From contig NZ_AP017470.1 of NCBI RefSeq assembly GCF_016592575.1, positions 2,242,501-2,306,500 of the forward strand: a stretch of DNA of 64,000 nt. Direction: 5' to 3'. Below are positions 5,038-11,415 of the stretch, piece by piece. The translations under genes and the position numbers were made by a program. The first letter of the stretch is position 1. Each line of letters opens with the position of its first letter. This stretch comes from Thermotomaculum hydrothermale. GTDB lineage: Bacteria; Acidobacteriota; Holophagae; Thermotomaculales; Thermotomaculaceae. Below the pieces are notes generated by a model. It had not been told where the DNA came from. It was given only the letters and a program-made list of their open reading frames with translations, and searched no databases.

Positions 5038-5942
5038 GGGATTTTAAGTTTTATTCGCAGGCTTTCCTTGATTACCTTTTAAAAGAGAAGAATTACTCAA
5101 TCAACACAATTATTGCATACAAGGAAGACCTTGAGTTGTTTGAGGATTTTTTAAACCTGTTTAACCTTAAAGTGGAAAATGTGGAAAAAGAAGATGTTAG
5201 AATGTTTGTTTCTTACCTTTCAAGGAAAAATTTTGAGAAGAATACAATTGCAAGAAAAATAAGCGCTTTAAAATCCTTTTTTTCTTTTTTGAAAAACAGG
5301 AAGTTTATTAAGAAAAATCCTGCTGCCCTTGTTTCTTCACCAAAGAGGGGAAAGGTATTGCCGTCTTTTATGACTGAAGAAGAGGTTGAGAAGCTTTTTG
5401 ATTCCCTTCCTTCTCCTGATGACTTTAAGTCTGCAAGGGATGTTGCAATAATGGAGCTTTTCTATGCCACAGGCTTGAGGGTTTCTGAGTTAGCAAACTT
5501 AAAGATGAGGGATATTGATATTCAAAATCAGATTGTAAGGGTTTTTGGAAAGGGGGGTAAGGAGAGGATTGTCCCCTTTGGAATTCCTGCAAAAGAGGCT
5601 CTTTTAAGGTATTTTAAGTTTAGAAGAGAGCATTTAATTGAAAAGAAAAACCTTACTGAAGAGTTTGTTTTCCTCAATGTTAGAGACGGTAAGCACATTA
5701 CAGATAGGGGGATAAAGTTTGTTGTAACTAATATGCTTAAAAAAATATCCTCAATGAAGAAGCTTTCAGTGCACTCTTTAAGGCACACATTTGCCACACA
5801 TTTGCTGAATAAGGGGGCTGATTTAAGGGCTATTCAGGAGTTGTTGGGCCATGCTTCGTTATCCACAACTCAAAGATACACTCACCTTTCAATTGATAAG
5901 TTGATTGATATTTACAGAAACTCTCATCCGGACGAAAAGTGA
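5034..5942 (+). CDS. xer: Tyrosine recombinase, XerC/XerD family
   Basis: 302 residues, the usual length of a chromosomal Xer. An N-terminal SAM-like core-binding domain (about 5-90) precedes the catalytic domain. All catalytic residues are seen: Arg149 in ATGLRVSEL, Lys173 in GKGGKER, His247 and Arg250 in HSLRHTFATHLL, His273 in LGHAS, and the nucleophile Tyr282. It would resolve chromosome dimers at dif during division. No other Xer gene is in the window, so XerC and XerD cannot be told apart; a single-recombinase XerH/XerA-like role is possible. No integron, phage or dif site is seen beside it, so it looks like a housekeeping gene. Confidence 0.9.
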   Translation: MRDFKFYSQAFLDYLLKEKNYSINTIIAYKEDLELFEDFLNLFNLKVENVEKEDVRMFVSYLSRKNFEKNTIARKISALKSFFSFLKNRKFIKKNPAALVSSPKRGKVLPSFMTEEEVEKLFDSLPSPDDFKSARDVAIMELFYATGLRVSELANLKMRDIDIQNQIVRVFGKGGKERIVPFGIPAKEALLRYFKFRREHLIEKKNLTEEFVFLNVRDGKHITDRGIKFVVTNMLKKISSMKKLSVHSLRHTFATHLLNKGADLRAIQELLGHASLSTTQRYTHLSIDKLIDIYRNSHPDEK

Positions 5943-6024
5943 AAAATTTAAGGTTTCTCCTTATTTACCAATAAATTTTTTATGCTAAAATGTTTTCAAC
6001 AAAATAAATAAAAAGGGGTGTTAA

Positions 6025-6480
6025 GTGAAACTGACTCCATTTTTAAATGAAGAAAAGATTATAATTGATTTTAAAGCAAAAAATAAGCTCAATTTTTTTT
6101 CAAAGTGTGCTGATTTAATAGTCAAACACCACCCTGATTTTGACAGGGAAGAGGTGCTTGAACTTTTTTTAAAGAGGGAAGAGACAATGTCAACCGGTAT
6201 TGGCAATGGTGTTGCTATTCCGCACATTGTTTACGGAAAGTGCAGGGCGCATGAGATTTATTTTTTCAAACTTGGTGACCCTATTGATTTTAATTCCCTT
6301 GACGGAAAGCCTGTAAGTTTGCTTTTTGTTGTAATAGGGAATGCGGCTAAAAGTAATCTGGTTCATTTGCAGATTCTTGCAAAGCTTGCAAGGTTGTTGA
6401 AGAAGGATGATTTTGTAAACAAATTGAAGAATGTTCAAAAACCTGAAGAAGTTATGGAGATAATTAGAGAGTATGAGTGA
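6025..6480 (+). CDS. PTS EIIA type-2-like regulatory protein
   Basis: 151 residues from a GTG start with AAAAGGGG upstream. The fold is that of fructose/mannitol EIIA (PtsN-like): DREEVLELFLKREETMSTGIGNGVAIPH places the phospho-accepting His at 67, and HLQILAKLARLLKKDDFVNKL follows. No EIIB, EIIC, HPr or EI gene is near. The gene overlaps by 8 nt with a PII-like gene and heads an operon of two antiporter-like membrane proteins. EIIA-like domains are known to be coupled to cation/proton antiporters in some lineages, so a regulatory rather than sugar-transport role is inferred, with phosphorylation of His67 as input. Confidence 0.85.
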   Translation: MKLTPFLNEEKIIIDFKAKNKLNFFSKCADLIVKHHPDFDREEVLELFLKREETMSTGIGNGVAIPHIVYGKCRAHEIYFFKLGDPIDFNSLDGKPVSLLFVVIGNAAKSNLVHLQILAKLARLLKKDDFVNKLKNVQKPEEVMEIIREYE

Positions 6481-6814
6481 TGCAAAGTTGCTTGTTTGTA
6501 TAATTGAAAAAGAGGAAAAGCTTGAAGAGGTTTTAGAAGGCCTTGTTGAAATTGGGATAACAGGTGCTTCTATCCTTGATGTAAGGGGTATGTTTGAATT
6601 TCTTGCTGACGAAATCCCCATTTTTGCAGGTTTTAGAAACCTTATTGAAGACAAAAATCCCACAAATAAAATGATTATTTCAGTAATTAAAGACGACAAT
6701 TTGCTGAAAGAGGCTATGGATACAATAGAAGAGATTTACGGCTCTTTCTCTAACCCCAACACAGGTATTATGTTTTCTCTCAATATAGGAAATTTAAGAG
6801 GATTGAAGTTGTAA
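6473..6814 (+). CDS. PII-like small signalling protein
   Basis: 113 residues. The order beta-alpha-beta (KLLVCIIEKEEKLEEVLEGLVEIGITGASILDVRG), a loop of about 25 residues, then beta-alpha-beta (KMIISVIKDDNLLKEAMDTIEEIYG) matches the ferredoxin-like repeat of the PII superfamily, with the loop at 40-63 in T-loop position. It lacks the canonical PII Tyr-uridylylation motif and ends in a short tail (GIMFSLNIGNLRGLKL). PII-like proteins bind nucleotides and often control a neighbouring transporter. ATG overlaps the EIIA stop, and the next gene begins directly after its stop, so it is embedded in the antiporter operon. The family call is from fold pattern only. Confidence 0.65.
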   Translation: MSDAKLLVCIIEKEEKLEEVLEGLVEIGITGASILDVRGMFEFLADEIPIFAGFRNLIEDKNPTNKMIISVIKDDNLLKEAMDTIEEIYGSFSNPNTGIMFSLNIGNLRGLKL

Positions 6815-7870
6815 ATGCTTTCTGAAATTTTAATAGTATGTGCAATAATTCTCTCCTATTTTGGAATTGGTTTTGTATTTAACAAAAGGAGAATGTCTCC
6901 TTTTTTAGGGCTTGAGTTTCTTTTAATTGGGATTCTCTTTTCCCTGTTAGATATTGAAAAAAACAGTTTTTTGCCTATACTCCCTCCATTTTTAGGGGCA
7001 TTCGGACTATTAATGGGGGTTCAGGTTAAAGCAAAGGATTTGAAAGGTTTAAGCAGGGATTTTTATGTTAAGGTTTTTTCCTATTCCCTAATCGTCTTTT
7101 TCTTTCTTTTTATTGTTTTTGTCTCCTTTTTTTCAAAAGGGGAAGCTGCGGTTTTAGCGTCTATTTTCACTTTGGGAAGTTATAAGGTAATGGCAACATT
7201 TATCCCTGATAGAAAGAAAGAAGACAGGGAAAAGCTTTTTTTTGCTGCTTTTTTGCCTTTTGTTTGTATTTTAATTTACTTTTTTTCCAATTTTGTAAAC
7301 TTTAATCCTTCCGTCACAAAGTGGTTTTTCCTGCTTTTGTTTTTATTTGCAGTACTTTCAAGGCTTGTTTTTGCAGTGTTTGAAGGGGAGTCCCTGTTGG
7401 TTTTAGGTTTAATAGGCATTATCCTTTTCTTTTCTGAACTGGCATATATTAAGGGGGTTTCTCCGTTTCTTTCAATGTTTTTCCTTGGCTTTTATCTTGC
7501 AAATTACTGCAAAAAAGGTGATGAGTTATTTTCAATTTTAATTAGCGATGAAAAGCAGCTTTACACCATTTTCCTTATTTTTTTAGGTTTTGTATCAGGG
7601 CTTAAATTTAACTTGCCTGTTTTTAAAATTGGCTTTGTGATTTTTGTTGCAGTAGTCCTTGTTAAGTTCCTGTTTTTTCTGTTAAAAAAAGAGTCTTTTG
7701 TGCTTTACCTTTCCCCAGGCGCATTTGGGGTGGTTTTGCTTTCAGATTGCTGGCTTATTTCAGGGCATAAACAGGGAGATTTAATTTTGTCTTCATCAAT
7801 TGTGGTAGTCGTTCTTTTGCAGGTTTTTTCAATGCTTTACTTAAAGAGGGTTTATGCGGGAAAAGATTAA
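6815..7870 (+). CDS. Cation/proton antiporter-like membrane protein (divergent)
   Basis: 351 residues, strongly hydrophobic, with about 10-12 membrane helices. It resembles a CPA2-type exchanger in layout (LILPPFLGAFGLLMGVQVKAKDLKG after three helices) but lacks the clear paired acidic residue motif in the core helices seen in typical antiporters. It starts immediately after the PII-like stop and overlaps the next antiporter gene by 17 nt. It may be a partner subunit of that protein, or a degenerate paralogue acting as regulator. Substrate unknown. Confidence 0.65.
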   Translation: MLSEILIVCAIILSYFGIGFVFNKRRMSPFLGLEFLLIGILFSLLDIEKNSFLPILPPFLGAFGLLMGVQVKAKDLKGLSRDFYVKVFSYSLIVFFFLFIVFVSFFSKGEAAVLASIFTLGSYKVMATFIPDRKKEDREKLFFAAFLPFVCILIYFFSNFVNFNPSVTKWFFLLLFLFAVLSRLVFAVFEGESLLVLGLIGIILFFSELAYIKGVSPFLSMFFLGFYLANYCKKGDELFSILISDEKQLYTIFLIFLGFVSGLKFNLPVFKIGFVIFVAVVLVKFLFFLLKKESFVLYLSPGAFGVVLLSDCWLISGHKQGDLILSSSIVVVVLLQVFSMLYLKRVYAGKD

Positions 7871-9164
7871 GATCTTTAAAGTGCTTGCAGTTTTAATTGT
7901 TTTTTCAATTTGCTTTTACTACTTTAAGGAAGCAAAGGAGGTCTTTTACTTCTCAGACATTGTTTCCCCTTACTTTTCTTTGGGTTTTCTTATAATTTCT
8001 GCCTTGCTTTTAGGGGTTGTTGCAAATGAGTTGGGGCTTCCCTCTCTTACAGGCTATTTAATTGCAGGAATGGTTTTCGGGCCTCAGGTTTTTAATTTTA
8101 TTAACAATAGCGATATAAAAACCCTTGAATTGATAAATTCAATTGCTTTAAGTTTTATAGCTATTTCAGCAGGGGGGGAGTTAAAATTAGAAAGCCTGAA
8201 GAAAAATGTAAAACCGATTGGTTATATTACAGTAATTCAATCAATCTTTGTGCTTGCGGGAATTTTTGTTATATTTTATTCCTTAGGCAGAGCTGGGTTT
8301 TTGATAAAAAATATGAATTCTACATCATTGCTCTTTTTCTCTATTTTTTTAGGGGTTATTGCAGTTGCAAAGTCTCCTGCTTCAACAATAGCCATAATTA
8401 ACGAATATAAGGCAAAGGGGACATTTACCGATATTGTTCTTGGGATAACAATGATAAAGGATGTGGTTGTGCTTTTAATGTTTTCTGTTGCATTTGCTTT
8501 TGCAAGAAATGCAATTAGCGGGGTTGAACTTTCGGCAAAATTCTTTCTATCAATTTTTTCTCACATTTTTATCTCCGGTGTTGCAGGGGTGATTTTCGGT
8601 TTTTTAATGATTGTTTTTTTCAAGTATGTTGCAAAGGAGATAGGAATATTTGTTGTGCTTGCATCTTTTATCTCTTATAAATTTGCATCAATTGTCGGGC
8701 TTGAAAATATGTTTATGTGTATGGTTGCAGGGTTTGTTGTTCAGAACTTTTCAAAGCAGGGCTCTGTTTTGATTGATGCAATTGAGGGAAGCCACCTCCC
8801 TGTTTATGTGATTTTCTTTTCAATTGCAGGTGCTGGGCTTGATTTTTCTTCCCTTAAATCGTACTGGGTAATTGTCCTATTGTTTGTTGTTTTAAGGCTA
8901 ATTTTGATTTACTGGACGACATACTTTGGTGCTGCTGTTTCTAAAACAGTTGAAAGTGTGAAAAAATACGCATGGACAGGGTTTATTACAAATGCAGGGC
9001 TTACTTTAAGTATGGTAATCCTTATTGATAAGGAGTTTAAAGATTTTGGCTCAATTCTTAAAGCAATTGTTATTTCTGTAATTGCTGTAAATCAAATTAT
9101 TGGCCCCATACTATTTAAAATAGGTATTGAAAAATCAGGGGAAGCAACAAAGTTGAATCAGTAG
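7854..9164 (+). CDS. CPA2-family Na+(K+)/H+ antiporter
   Basis: 436 residues, about 13 membrane helices. The conserved CPA2 opening is present (LGFLIISALLLGVVANELGLPSLTGYLIAGMVFGPQVFNF at about 42-80), then FIAISAGGELKLESLKK, and a helix with VIAVAKSPASTIAIINEYKAKG in the position of the ion-binding core. It should exchange Na+ or K+ for protons at the inner membrane. It is the last gene of the EIIA-PII-antiporter operon and overlaps the upstream antiporter-like gene. Its end overlaps the convergent TSUP gene by 7 nt. The start ATG was kept because an overlap of 17 nt is normal in this genome. Confidence 0.85.
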   Translation: MREKIKIFKVLAVLIVFSICFYYFKEAKEVFYFSDIVSPYFSLGFLIISALLLGVVANELGLPSLTGYLIAGMVFGPQVFNFINNSDIKTLELINSIALSFIAISAGGELKLESLKKNVKPIGYITVIQSIFVLAGIFVIFYSLGRAGFLIKNMNSTSLLFFSIFLGVIAVAKSPASTIAIINEYKAKGTFTDIVLGITMIKDVVVLLMFSVAFAFARNAISGVELSAKFFLSIFSHIFISGVAGVIFGFLMIVFFKYVAKEIGIFVVLASFISYKFASIVGLENMFMCMVAGFVVQNFSKQGSVLIDAIEGSHLPVYVIFFSIAGAGLDFSSLKSYWVIVLLFVVLRLILIYWTTYFGAAVSKTVESVKKYAWTGFITNAGLTLSMVILIDKEFKDFGSILKAIVISVIAVNQIIGPILFKIGIEKSGEATKLNQ

Positions 9165-9889
9165 AGCATTAGTTTTAAGGCCATTATTGTAATTGCTATC
9201 AGAATAAGGGCTTTAATATACTTCTCGCCTTTTTCAACTGCAAGTTTTGCCCCTAAATAACCGCCTATCCCCTGCCCTGTTGCAACAACAGCGGCAACAG
9301 ACCAGTTAATCTTTCCCTTGTATGCAAATATAGCAATTGCAACAATTGTGTATGTGGCAATAATAAAGGTTTTTACAGCATTTGTTTTTACTAAGTCGTA
9401 ACCTGTGGCAAGCTTTATCCCGGCAATAAGCAACAGCCCCACTCCAGCCTGAATAAATCCGCCGTAAAAGCCAATTAGAAGGAAGATAAAAAAAACAATT
9501 GGATAGCTTTTGATTTTGTAGTTAAACCTTTTCTTTTTATTGTTTGAGAAAATTGAAACAATGACGAAAATTATCATAAAAATTGAAATTATTTTCTTAA
9601 ATTGATTGTCAGGCAAAATACTTGAATAGTATGCACCTATTATGCTTCCTAAAATAGCGGGGATTACAAGTTTAATATTTGTTTCAAAATCCCATACATT
9701 CCTTTTTTTAAATGAGTAAACCCCAAGCCAGTTTTGAATAAGCAGTGAGATTCTGTTTGTGCCGTTTGCCACTGTTGGGGGGAGGCCGTAAAAGATTAAA
9801 AGCGGAAGCATAACGAATGAACCGCCTGCCGCAGATATGTTAAATATTCCAGCCACTATTGCCACAAGGAAAAGCAAAAATAAAGTCAT
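9158..9889 (-). CDS. TSUP-family (TauE/SafE) anion exporter
   Basis: 243 residues with about 8 membrane helices and the family repeats: AAGGSFVMLPLLIFYGLPPTVANGTNRISLLIQNWLG at the N-terminus and GGFIQAGVGLLLIAGIKLATGYDLVKTNAVKTFI in the second half. TSUP proteins move sulfite, sulfoacetate or related organic anions across the inner membrane. The start ATG follows GAGGGTAGG. It is divergent from the metal-efflux permease gene (137 nt between them) and convergent with the antiporter. Its substrate is not indicated by any neighbour. Confidence 0.85.
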   Translation of the reverse strand: MTLFLLFLVAIVAGIFNISAAGGSFVMLPLLIFYGLPPTVANGTNRISLLIQNWLGVYSFKKRNVWDFETNIKLVIPAILGSIIGAYYSSILPDNQFKKIISIFMIIFVIVSIFSNNKKKRFNYKIKSYPIVFFIFLLIGFYGGFIQAGVGLLLIAGIKLATGYDLVKTNAVKTFIIATYTIVAIAIFAYKGKINWSVAAVVATGQGIGGYLGAKLAVEKGEKYIKALILIAITIMALKLMLY

Positions 9890-9966
9890 CCTACCCTCAA
9901 ATATTTTTTAAGCGTCTCACTTCAAAATACTCTTTTTTATAGCATAAAAAAAGGGAGCGATAAATC

Positions 9967-9996
9967 TTTACAAAAAAGTAATATTTATGATATAAA
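9967..9996 (+). promoter_or_regulatory. Promoter of the metal permease with palindromic -35 region
   Basis: TTTACA (9967-9972), an 18-nt spacer and TATAAA (9991-9996, preceded by TGA) form a promoter. The 14-bp palindrome TTACAAAAAAGTAA (9968-9981) covers the -35. The identical 14-mer covers the -35 of the rrf2-suf promoter (39505-39518). Confidence 0.5.
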
Positions 9997-10026
9997 AGTA
10001 TTTAGAAGGATTTATTGGAGGTTTTT

Positions 10027-11415
10027 ATGGCTTTAATAATAGATTTTATTCAAAATTTTGCCAGAGAATTTATATACCTTACCCTTGAAATGGGTATTTA
10101 TCTCTTAATTGGTTTTCTTGTTGCAGGAATAATTCACGCTTTTTTGCCTGATGGCTTTGTATCAAAACATGTGGGTAAAAAAGGGTTCTGGTCTTCTTTT
10201 AAATCTGCTATGTTTGGAGTTCCCCTTCCTTTATGTTCTTGCGGAGTTGTCCCTACAGCACTTTCCCTTAAAAAATCAAAAGCATCAAACGGGGCTGTGG
10301 TTTCTTTTCTTATTTCTACTCCCCAAACTGGAATTGACAGTATTGCGGCAACATACAGCCTTTTAGGAAGTGCCTTTGCTTTTTTCAGGGTTATTGTTGC
10401 ATTTATTACAGGGGTAATTGGTGGTTTTATAACTGATTTGTTTGTTAGAGGGGAAGAATATAACCCTGAAATAGTAGAAGAGAATCCATGCGGGTGTGGC
10501 TCAGAAGAAACCTCATGCTGTTCTACTGAGAATCATATTGCAGATGATGCTTGCGGTTGCGAAGAGGATAATTGTGAATGTGAGGAAGACAGCTGCGGTT
10601 GCAATAGTGAAAATGATAAATCGCATTACACTTTTTTAGAAAAGGTTAAAGAGGTTTTTAGATACGGTTTTGGTGAATTGCTTGAATCAATTGCAAAGTG
10701 GCTTGTTCTTGGCCTGGTGATTGGTGCTTTGATTTCTGTAATTGTGCCTGATAACTTTTTTTCTCTATACCTTTCAAATAGGTTTTTAACCTATCTTTTA
10801 ATACTCGCAGTTTCAGTGCCTGTCTATATTTGTGCAACAGGCTCTATTCCAATAGCCAGCTCTTTGATTTTAAAAGGGGTGAGCCCTGGCGCAGCATTTG
10901 TTTTTCTAATGGCAGGGCCTGCCACAAACTCAGTTACTTTTACCGTGCTTTTAAAAACAATAGGGAAAAAATCAACCTTAATTTACATTTTTACAATTAT
11001 AATGGGTGCTGTTGTTGGCGGATTGATAATTGATTTTTACTTTATTGATTTAATGCTGAGGCAGATTGCCGCAAACCATTCAGCGCAGACTATGTCAATT
11101 GTCAAAATTGTTGGTGGGATAATTTTTGCTATTTTGCTGATTTTTGCATTGATTCCGAAAAAGAAAGACTCATGCGGTTGCGAGGTTGATTTAGAAGAAG
11201 AAAGGCTTGAACAAAAATTTGAGCCTAAGGTTTTCAAAGTAAAAGGGATGACATGTAATCACTGTAAAATAAATGTTTCAAGAATTGTGGAAAGTATTAA
11301 GGGGATAAAAAACTACTCTATAAACCTTGAGGCAGGTGAACTTGTTGTTGAGGGTGAATTTGATTTGACAGTTTTGAAAGAGTCTCTTGAAGAATATGGG
11401 TATTCAATAAAATAA
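10027..11415 (+). CDS. SO_0444-family Cu/Zn efflux permease with C-terminal HMA domain
   Basis: 462 residues from the ATG at 10027; GGAGG (10017-10021) sits 5 nt upstream, so a TTG at 10015 that overlaps the ribosome site is rejected. The membrane core carries PLPLCSCGVVPTALSLKKS and SFLISTPQTGIDS, and a second repeat with CATGSIPIASSL and GPATNSVTFTVL, as in the DUF318/ArsP-like permeases annotated as SO_0444 Cu/Zn exporters. A cytoplasmic linker at about 150-200 is very rich in Cys and acidic residues. Residues 402-462 form a heavy-metal-associated domain with CNHC (Cys410, Cys413). It likely senses and exports a soft metal or metalloid. The 3' end overlaps an antisense gene by 103 nt. Confidence 0.88.
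   Translation: MALIIDFIQNFAREFIYLTLEMGIYLLIGFLVAGIIHAFLPDGFVSKHVGKKGFWSSFKSAMFGVPLPLCSCGVVPTALSLKKSKASNGAVVSFLISTPQTGIDSIAATYSLLGSAFAFFRVIVAFITGVIGGFITDLFVRGEEYNPEIVEENPCGCGSEETSCCSTENHIADDACGCEEDNCECEEDSCGCNSENDKSHYTFLEKVKEVFRYGFGELLESIAKWLVLGLVIGALISVIVPDNFFSLYLSNRFLTYLLILAVSVPVYICATGSIPIASSLILKGVSPGAAFVFLMAGPATNSVTFTVLLKTIGKKSTLIYIFTIIMGAVVGGLIIDFYFIDLMLRQIAANHSAQTMSIVKIVGGIIFAILLIFALIPKKKDSCGCEVDLEEERLEQKFEPKVFKVKGMTCNHCKINVSRIVESIKGIKNYSINLEAGELVVEGEFDLTVLKESLEEYGYSIK

Follow-up and report, generated by a model that had tools for sequence, protein, structure and literature searches.

A four-gene operon for an EIIA protein, a PII-like protein and two antiporter-fold proteins in Thermotomaculum hydrothermale: a candidate for a regulated cation/H+ antiporter

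The subject of the present analysis is a tight operon of four genes in the genome of Thermotomaculum hydrothermale. It was found within a stretch of 64,000 nucleotides (hereafter the window), which covers positions 2,242,501-2,306,500 of a single contig of 2.317 Mb, and it extends from position 6025 to position 9164 of this window. The genes encode an EIIA protein of the phosphotransferase system (PTS), a PII-like protein and two membrane proteins with relation to the cation/proton antiporters, which are termed CPAs (product of the third gene, with a divergent antiporter fold) and CPA (product of the fourth gene). A first-pass annotation, made from the DNA sequence alone, had described four overlapping or abutting genes in this place, and we could confirm the coordinates of all four open reading frames (Table 1).

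The gene products and the borders of the operon

The EIIA protein is a clear member of its Pfam family (PF00359: 124 bits, cut-off 27 bits), and its score with the PtsN equivalog model TIGR01419 lies below the threshold (86.2 vs. 138.7 bits). His67, which had already been named as the phospho-acceptor, is encoded at positions 6223-6225 and is shared by all 70 EIIA relatives whose sequence extends over this position. R51, E52, T57, A64 and P66 are conserved among these proteins as well. The initial view that this EIIA lacks any PTS partner holds true for the neighborhood of the operon, but not for the whole genome. At about 763-770 kb, there is a cluster with the order lptB-rpoN-hpf-EIIA-hprK-EIIA-Man-HPr-EI (apart from EIIA, HPr and EI, these names were read from the sequence without a profile test), which contains the second of the two EIIA-2 genes of this genome, the other one being that of the operon. 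The genes for enzyme I (EI), HPr, HPrK and EIIA-Man are located at 765-769 kb, and HPr carries the active-site motif GLHARAA. Since EI and HPr are both encoded, there is a plausible phosphate source for the EIIA of the operon. No PTS_EIIC permease was found in the genome, although other permease families were not searched. Together with the presence of EI and HPr, this indicates that the relay is probably a regulatory one.

The PII-like protein passes the gathering cut-off of PF00543 only narrowly (27.3 vs. 25 bits), and 66 of the 72 members of its family match this profile with E ≤ 0.01. The AlphaFold2 model of the single chain, calculated with 72 relatives, has a predicted local distance difference test score (pLDDT) of 88.5 and a predicted template modelling score of 0.80. 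Its order of elements is beta-alpha-beta-(helix 40-47, helix 49-57)-beta-alpha-beta. In a Foldseek search, the top matches were all PII or SbtB proteins (2.7e-6 to 1hwu), nucleotide complexes of SbtB among them, and superposition with GlnK, GlnB and SbtB chains by VIA-align resulted in Z-scores of 11.3-12.6 (2j9d_C: Z 12.6, 102 residues, root mean square deviation (rmsd) 5.2; 1hwu_E: Z 12.2, 81 residues, rmsd 2.1). The PII fold of the 113-residue protein, one of the two conditions that the first-pass annotation had set for its proposal, is thus predicted with confidence.

There are also interesting deviations from the known PII proteins. The T-loop-like region that had been noted in the sequence has the length of a PII T-loop, but it is predicted to form two helices. 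The second of them contains PIFAGFR (residues 49-55, positions 6617-6637), a version of the motif PIFAG[LF]R, which ranks first in conservation within the family. PIFAG is present in 63 of the 72 members, and P49, I50, F51, A52, G53 and R55 are each conserved to more than 90%. When the PII signatures PS00496 and PS00638 were applied to the family, the C-terminal signature with the ATP-contacting GDGK was absent from all 72 members, whereas a canonical PII control matched. The signature of the T-loop uridylylation site was likewise found in none of the 72, but since the control PII was negative here as well, little weight can be given to this criterion. In the column of Lys90 (aligned to the PII protein of Aquifex), I, L or V occurs in 64 members and lysine in three. 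Because of the missing GDGK signature and the mostly hydrophobic Lys90 column, canonical ATP binding by this protein appears doubtful, and nucleotide binding, which had been proposed as the second signal input of the operon, is unproven. With its relatives, the PII-like protein forms a separate family, and it is presumably a trimer. It was the only P-II match in the genome, where this search revealed no canonical GlnB or GlnK. Viral contigs contained no relatives of it. A "PII-like protein" of Borrelia, described in PLoS Pathogens, is actually an unrelated DUF2179/YitT protein.

CPA is a member of the Na/H-exchanger family (PF00999: 91.6 vs. 26.2 bits), and the best solved-structure match of its family profile is NapA from Thermus (6.7e-11). 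Lys202-Asp203 of CPA take the position of the Asp-Asp pair of NapA. Asp203 (codon 8460-8462) is present in 32 out of 32 CPA relatives, where the preceding residue is lysine in 20, methionine in 8 and aspartate in 2 cases; R348, N298, E109 and E184 are likewise invariant. Both membrane proteins had been described as CPA2-like, with one of them divergent. This is correct at the level of family likeness, but the CPA2 model TIGR00932 gives only 58.3 of the required 238.3 bits with CPA. The protein stops after its membrane domain and has no cytosolic regulatory domain; the RCK/KTN or Usp tails of many relatives have no counterpart in it. A search for fusions of EIIA to the antiporter among CPA genes with long reading frames detected none, and the tails that were tested turned out to be GT20, Usp or other domains.

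CPAs alone yields no significant Pfam match. However, hhalign between the profiles of the CPAs and CPA families gave a probability of 99.96% (E 3.2e-39, 395 columns), and 342-350 of the 351 residues of the predicted structure (pLDDT 87.4) can be aligned to SOS1, NhaP and NapA with Z-scores of 25-27.6 and an rmsd of 4.5-5.2 (SOS1 chain 8jd9_A: Z 27.6, 350 residues, rmsd 4.5). CPAs is a paralogue of CPA that has kept the antiporter fold. At the site of Lys-Asp in CPA, it possesses Leu-Pro-Phe, and the catalytic aspartate is therefore absent. The first-pass annotation had spoken of one ion exchanger, but the loss of the aspartate had been missed. As a consequence of this loss, the exchanger may combine two unlike subunits, with CPAs probably being the inactive one paired with active CPA.

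The genes for EIIA and the PII-like protein overlap by 8 bp, those for the PII-like protein and CPAs abut, and those for CPAs and CPA share 17 bp. Their translation may therefore be coupled. Since a xerC-like gene 5' of the operon ends at position 5942 and the TauE gene 3' of it lies on the opposite strand (7 bp overlap with the CPA gene), the transcription unit probably comprises just these four genes. A promoter-like sequence, TTTACC-16-TAAAAT with a TG extension, is present at positions 5964-5991, but such matches occur in this region at chance level, and a scan for promoters and terminators around the operon gave no signal above chance. Positions 9158-11415 hold the minus-strand gene for this TauE/SafE permease, followed by one for an ArsP_1 permease that carries an HMA domain as well as a Cys-rich insert.

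Table 1 Features of the operon in the window and CPA-GT20 fusions at other loci (positions at L loci refer to the respective locus)
Feature	Position	Strand	Remarks
Gap between xerC-like gene and EIIA gene	5943-6024	+	likely site of the operon promoter
EIIA (PTS_EIIA_2/PtsN-like)	6025-6480	+	151 amino acids, GTG start; PF00359, E 4.8e-36
PII-like protein	6473-6814	+	113 amino acids; PF00543, E 4.7e-6
CPAs, divergent antiporter-fold membrane protein	6815-7870	+	351 amino acids; hhalign to CPA family, predicted structure
CPA, Na/H-exchanger-family antiporter	7854-9164	+	436 amino acids; PF00999, E 6.2e-26
CPA-GT20 fusion	L139:3356-6085
CPA-GT20 fusion	L140:3144-5876
CPA-GT20 fusion	L141:3507-7055
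CPA-GT20 fusion	L143:5086-7842
CPA-GT20 fusion	L144:3069-6953
CPA-GT20 fusion	L149:2567-5551
CPA-GT20 fusion	L150:2795-6430

Conservation and genomic context of the gene set

Relatives were collected by searches of 199 genomes of the phylum and of a collection of 84,980 species. The profile for the PII scan was built from 9 of the 15 first PII sequences, because all 15 were too diverse, and weak or false matches of the first search were left out (L022 and L023, ribonucleotide reductase-like; L024 and L043, canonical PII). The resulting PII-like family comprises 88 distinct loci, 66 of which have an adjacent EIIA gene on the same strand. In 35 of the 88 loci antiporter genes are found beside EIIA-PII, and this in three arrangements: EIIA-PII-CPAs-CPA (21 loci, the window among them), CPAs-CPA-EIIA-PII (7 loci) and EIIA-PII convergent with CPA-CPAs (2 loci). 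One further locus has a fused EIIA-PII gene followed by CPAs-CPA, and in three more CPAs alone follows EIIA-PII, although at least two of these (L045 and L121) end there with the contig. The gene order is thus kept in relatives, which was the second condition set by the first-pass annotation, and the existence of three arrangements implies that the linkage outlasts rearrangement.

The four-gene set occurs in many uncultured bacteria. According to the record titles, which may be wrong for single metagenome-assembled genomes (MAGs), loci with antiporter genes are present in Aminicenantes, Thermoanaerobaculales, Gemmatimonadales, Glassbacteria, Planctomycetota and a proteobacterial MAG. For the EIIA-PII pair alone, the range widens to KSB1, Calditrichota, Sumerlaeota, Spirochaetota and others. 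Among the 199 genomes of the phylum, 15 (from 8 families) contain a strong PII-like match and 34 contain CPA/CPAs homologs, and all 15 genomes of the first group belong to the second (hypergeometric probability 1.4e-13, with relatedness ignored). In three genomes of one family (G004, G020 and G047), the EIIA-PII pair, CPA and CPAs are all present at separate places, which indicates that co-presence outlives linkage.

The genomes G190 and G202 encode EIIA and the PII-like protein in a single open reading frame, followed by CPAs and CPA. It is unlikely that this fusion is an artefact, since the fused frame of G202 starts with an ATG of its own where EIIA begins, and since the two genomes match each other at 68% identity. 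Based on these fusions, EIIA and the PII-like protein look like a functional pair that is tied to the antiporter pair.

Several loci show additional neighbors. In L068 and L075, the PII-like gene adjoins genes for an apgM-type phosphoglycerate mutase and a glutamine amidotransferase-like protein of the purine pathway. In L095 and L119, genes for a CheX-like and a zinc-ribbon membrane protein precede EIIA-PII, and an apparent ClC channel is encoded further upstream in L119.

CPAs-CPA pairs without EIIA-PII were found in other genomes of the phylum. At seven loci of this kind, CPA is fused to GT20, the trehalose-6-phosphate synthase family (detected by Pfam in two and by BLAST in five of them; Table 1). 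These fusions, which often adjoin a CPAs gene, have the appearance of an antiporter-osmolyte synthase. In another locus (L138:1994-10594), TrkA and TrkH are flanked by CPAs, which has an in-frame TAG, and by a CPA of 1490 amino acids with an AAA-like region at its C-terminus. Taken together, the GT20 fusions and the order CPAs-TrkA-TrkH-CPA point to osmotic and K+ homeostasis.

A different context was observed for PII-like genes without an EIIA partner. Such solo members are located directly upstream of operons for F-type ATP synthases in five loci (L074, L086, L096, L102 and L106) and of operons for V/A-type ATP synthases in two (L094 and L099), with hemL upstream in six of these seven. The type of the ATPase varies while the PII-like gene remains constant, and this hints at a broader connection with cation-coupled machines. 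This context is also relevant for the question whether the PII-like protein senses a ligand at all. It could be a mere trimeric adaptor by which EIIA is recruited to the membrane, in which case phosphorylation would be the single input. The absence of PS00496 and PS00638 from the whole family, the hydrophobic residues in place of Lys90 in most members and the fusion to EIIA in two genomes are all in line with such an adaptor. However, the solo members beside ATP synthase operons argue for a role of the PII-like protein that is independent of EIIA, and it is well established that non-canonical PII-like proteins such as SbtB and PstA do bind nucleotides. We therefore regard a pure adaptor function as rather unlikely.

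A proposed mode of antiporter control

On balance, we lean slightly towards the view that the four genes code for a heteromeric cation/H+ antiporter under regulation, which is controlled by the phosphorylation of EIIA and by the PII-like subunit. CPA would be the ion-moving subunit and CPAs an inactive partner with conserved fold, and the antiporter would serve osmotic and pH homeostasis. The transported ion would most likely be K+, as far as can be deduced from the relatives. Since CPA has no tail, its cytosolic control might be exerted by two separate small proteins. His67 of EIIA would take over phosphate from the EI-HPr relay of the genome and thereby report the phosphoenolpyruvate or carbon-energy state, and the PII-like trimer might touch its partner via the helical hairpin with PIFAG[LF]R. 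It may sense a small ligand, for instance an adenine nucleotide or cyclic di-AMP (c-di-AMP), or serve as an adaptor.

Unphosphorylated PtsN has been described to bind and inhibit the K+/H+ antiporter YcgO, and phosphorylation weakens this binding (PMC11808508). By analogy, unphosphorylated EIIA and the PII-like protein might keep the antiporter off, until phosphorylation or a ligand sets it free. The sign of the control by EIIA could also be the opposite, since phosphorylation yields the active form in the case of KdpD of Pseudomonas putida (PMC13104625).

Some observations weigh against this interpretation. About 29 loci possess EIIA-PII but no CPA nearby (some of them end at contig ends), so the EIIA-PII pair may have other targets. 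Vice versa, many genomes have CPA and CPAs without PII. The loss of the aspartate is common but not uniform, as other CPAs proteins have serine, asparagine or sometimes even aspartate near the site and several relatives retain an aspartate at or close to it, and the assignment of K+ rests on distant context and not on the operon of the window.

The loci without antiporter genes raise the question whether EIIA and the PII-like protein are a general signalling pair for other targets, with the antiporters being neighbors because of a shared regulon and not because of binding. The unlinked genes in three genomes would fit to this as well. Nevertheless, we consider it quite improbable, since the linkage is kept in three arrangements and every one of the 15 genomes with the PII-like gene also has antiporter homologs.

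It is also conceivable that CPA and CPAs are two independent homodimeric transporters instead of one heteromer, and that CPAs carries something else. The relatives with solved structures are known to be homodimers, the two genes lie at separate loci in three genomes, and some CPAs proteins retain an aspartate near the site. On the other hand, the genes for CPAs and CPA are arranged in tandem and often overlap in most loci, even in those without PII, and CPAs of the window has lost its catalytic aspartate. Two separate transporters thus seem rather doubtful to us.

The preferred interpretation, a heteromer under the control of EIIA and the PII-like subunit, can be extended. Here, the heteromer would be formed by one CPA protein that is active and another that is catalytically dead, and it would be jointly gated by phospho-EIIA and by a PII-like family with helical T-loop that also serves ATP synthases elsewhere. 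We put this forward as a tentative possibility. If this two-input reading is true, the PII-like family would regulate cation-coupled membrane machines in general.

Relation to known systems

A literature search, which did not reach most subscription journals and is therefore no proof, revealed no description of a module of EIIA, a PII-like protein and an antiporter pair; the PII family with helical T-loop and an inactive antiporter paralogue were likewise not found. The operon offers a defined genetic unit for studying how ion gradients are linked to the energy or nutrient status of the cell. The PII-like family is accessible to assays, and the antiporter pair allows to test whether bacterial antiporters can include an inactive partner subunit.

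GlnK-AmtB and SbtB-SbtA resemble the operon in that a small PII-fold protein is encoded beside a transporter, which is regulated by direct binding in these two systems. However, their targets are transporters of ammonium and bicarbonate, their T-loop is extended and their nucleotide sites are known, whereas the protein described here lacks the nucleotide signature and has a T-loop with PIFAG[LF]R that is predicted to be helical. PstA/DarA, which bind c-di-AMP, also have a PII-like fold, and c-di-AMP is linked to K+ control. Since a diadenylate cyclase is encoded in the genome of the window, we considered the identity of the PII-like protein with such a c-di-AMP receptor. This was rejected, because it does not match CdAMP_rec (PF06153), and only one of the 72 family members does so (1.8e-4).

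The antiporters KefB/KefC are members of the same superfamily and are likewise controlled by small proteins encoded apart from them, KefG/KefF. The Kef systems differ in the C-terminal KTN domain of the antiporter, which is gated by glutathione adducts, and in their ancillary proteins, which belong to another family (general knowledge; PMC7349511).

A further resemblance concerns PtsN of E. coli, which apart from YcgO also regulates TrkA and KdpD (PMC13104625). In these cases, monovalent cation transport is under the control of an EIIA from the same Pfam family, whose binding depends on the state of its phospho-histidine. However, the EIIA acting on YcgO is unlinked, YcgO is a CPA1 protein with a putative RCK and a putative CorC domain of its own, and no PII-like protein is involved. 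Here, in contrast, EIIA, the PII-like protein and a tail-less antiporter pair are united in one gene set. The control of K+ transport by the nitrogen-related PTS (PTS-Ntr) and the control of transporters by PII proteins have been known separately and on separate targets, while in the gene set described here both switches are fused in some genomes, and several phyla encode them together with a pair of antiporters.

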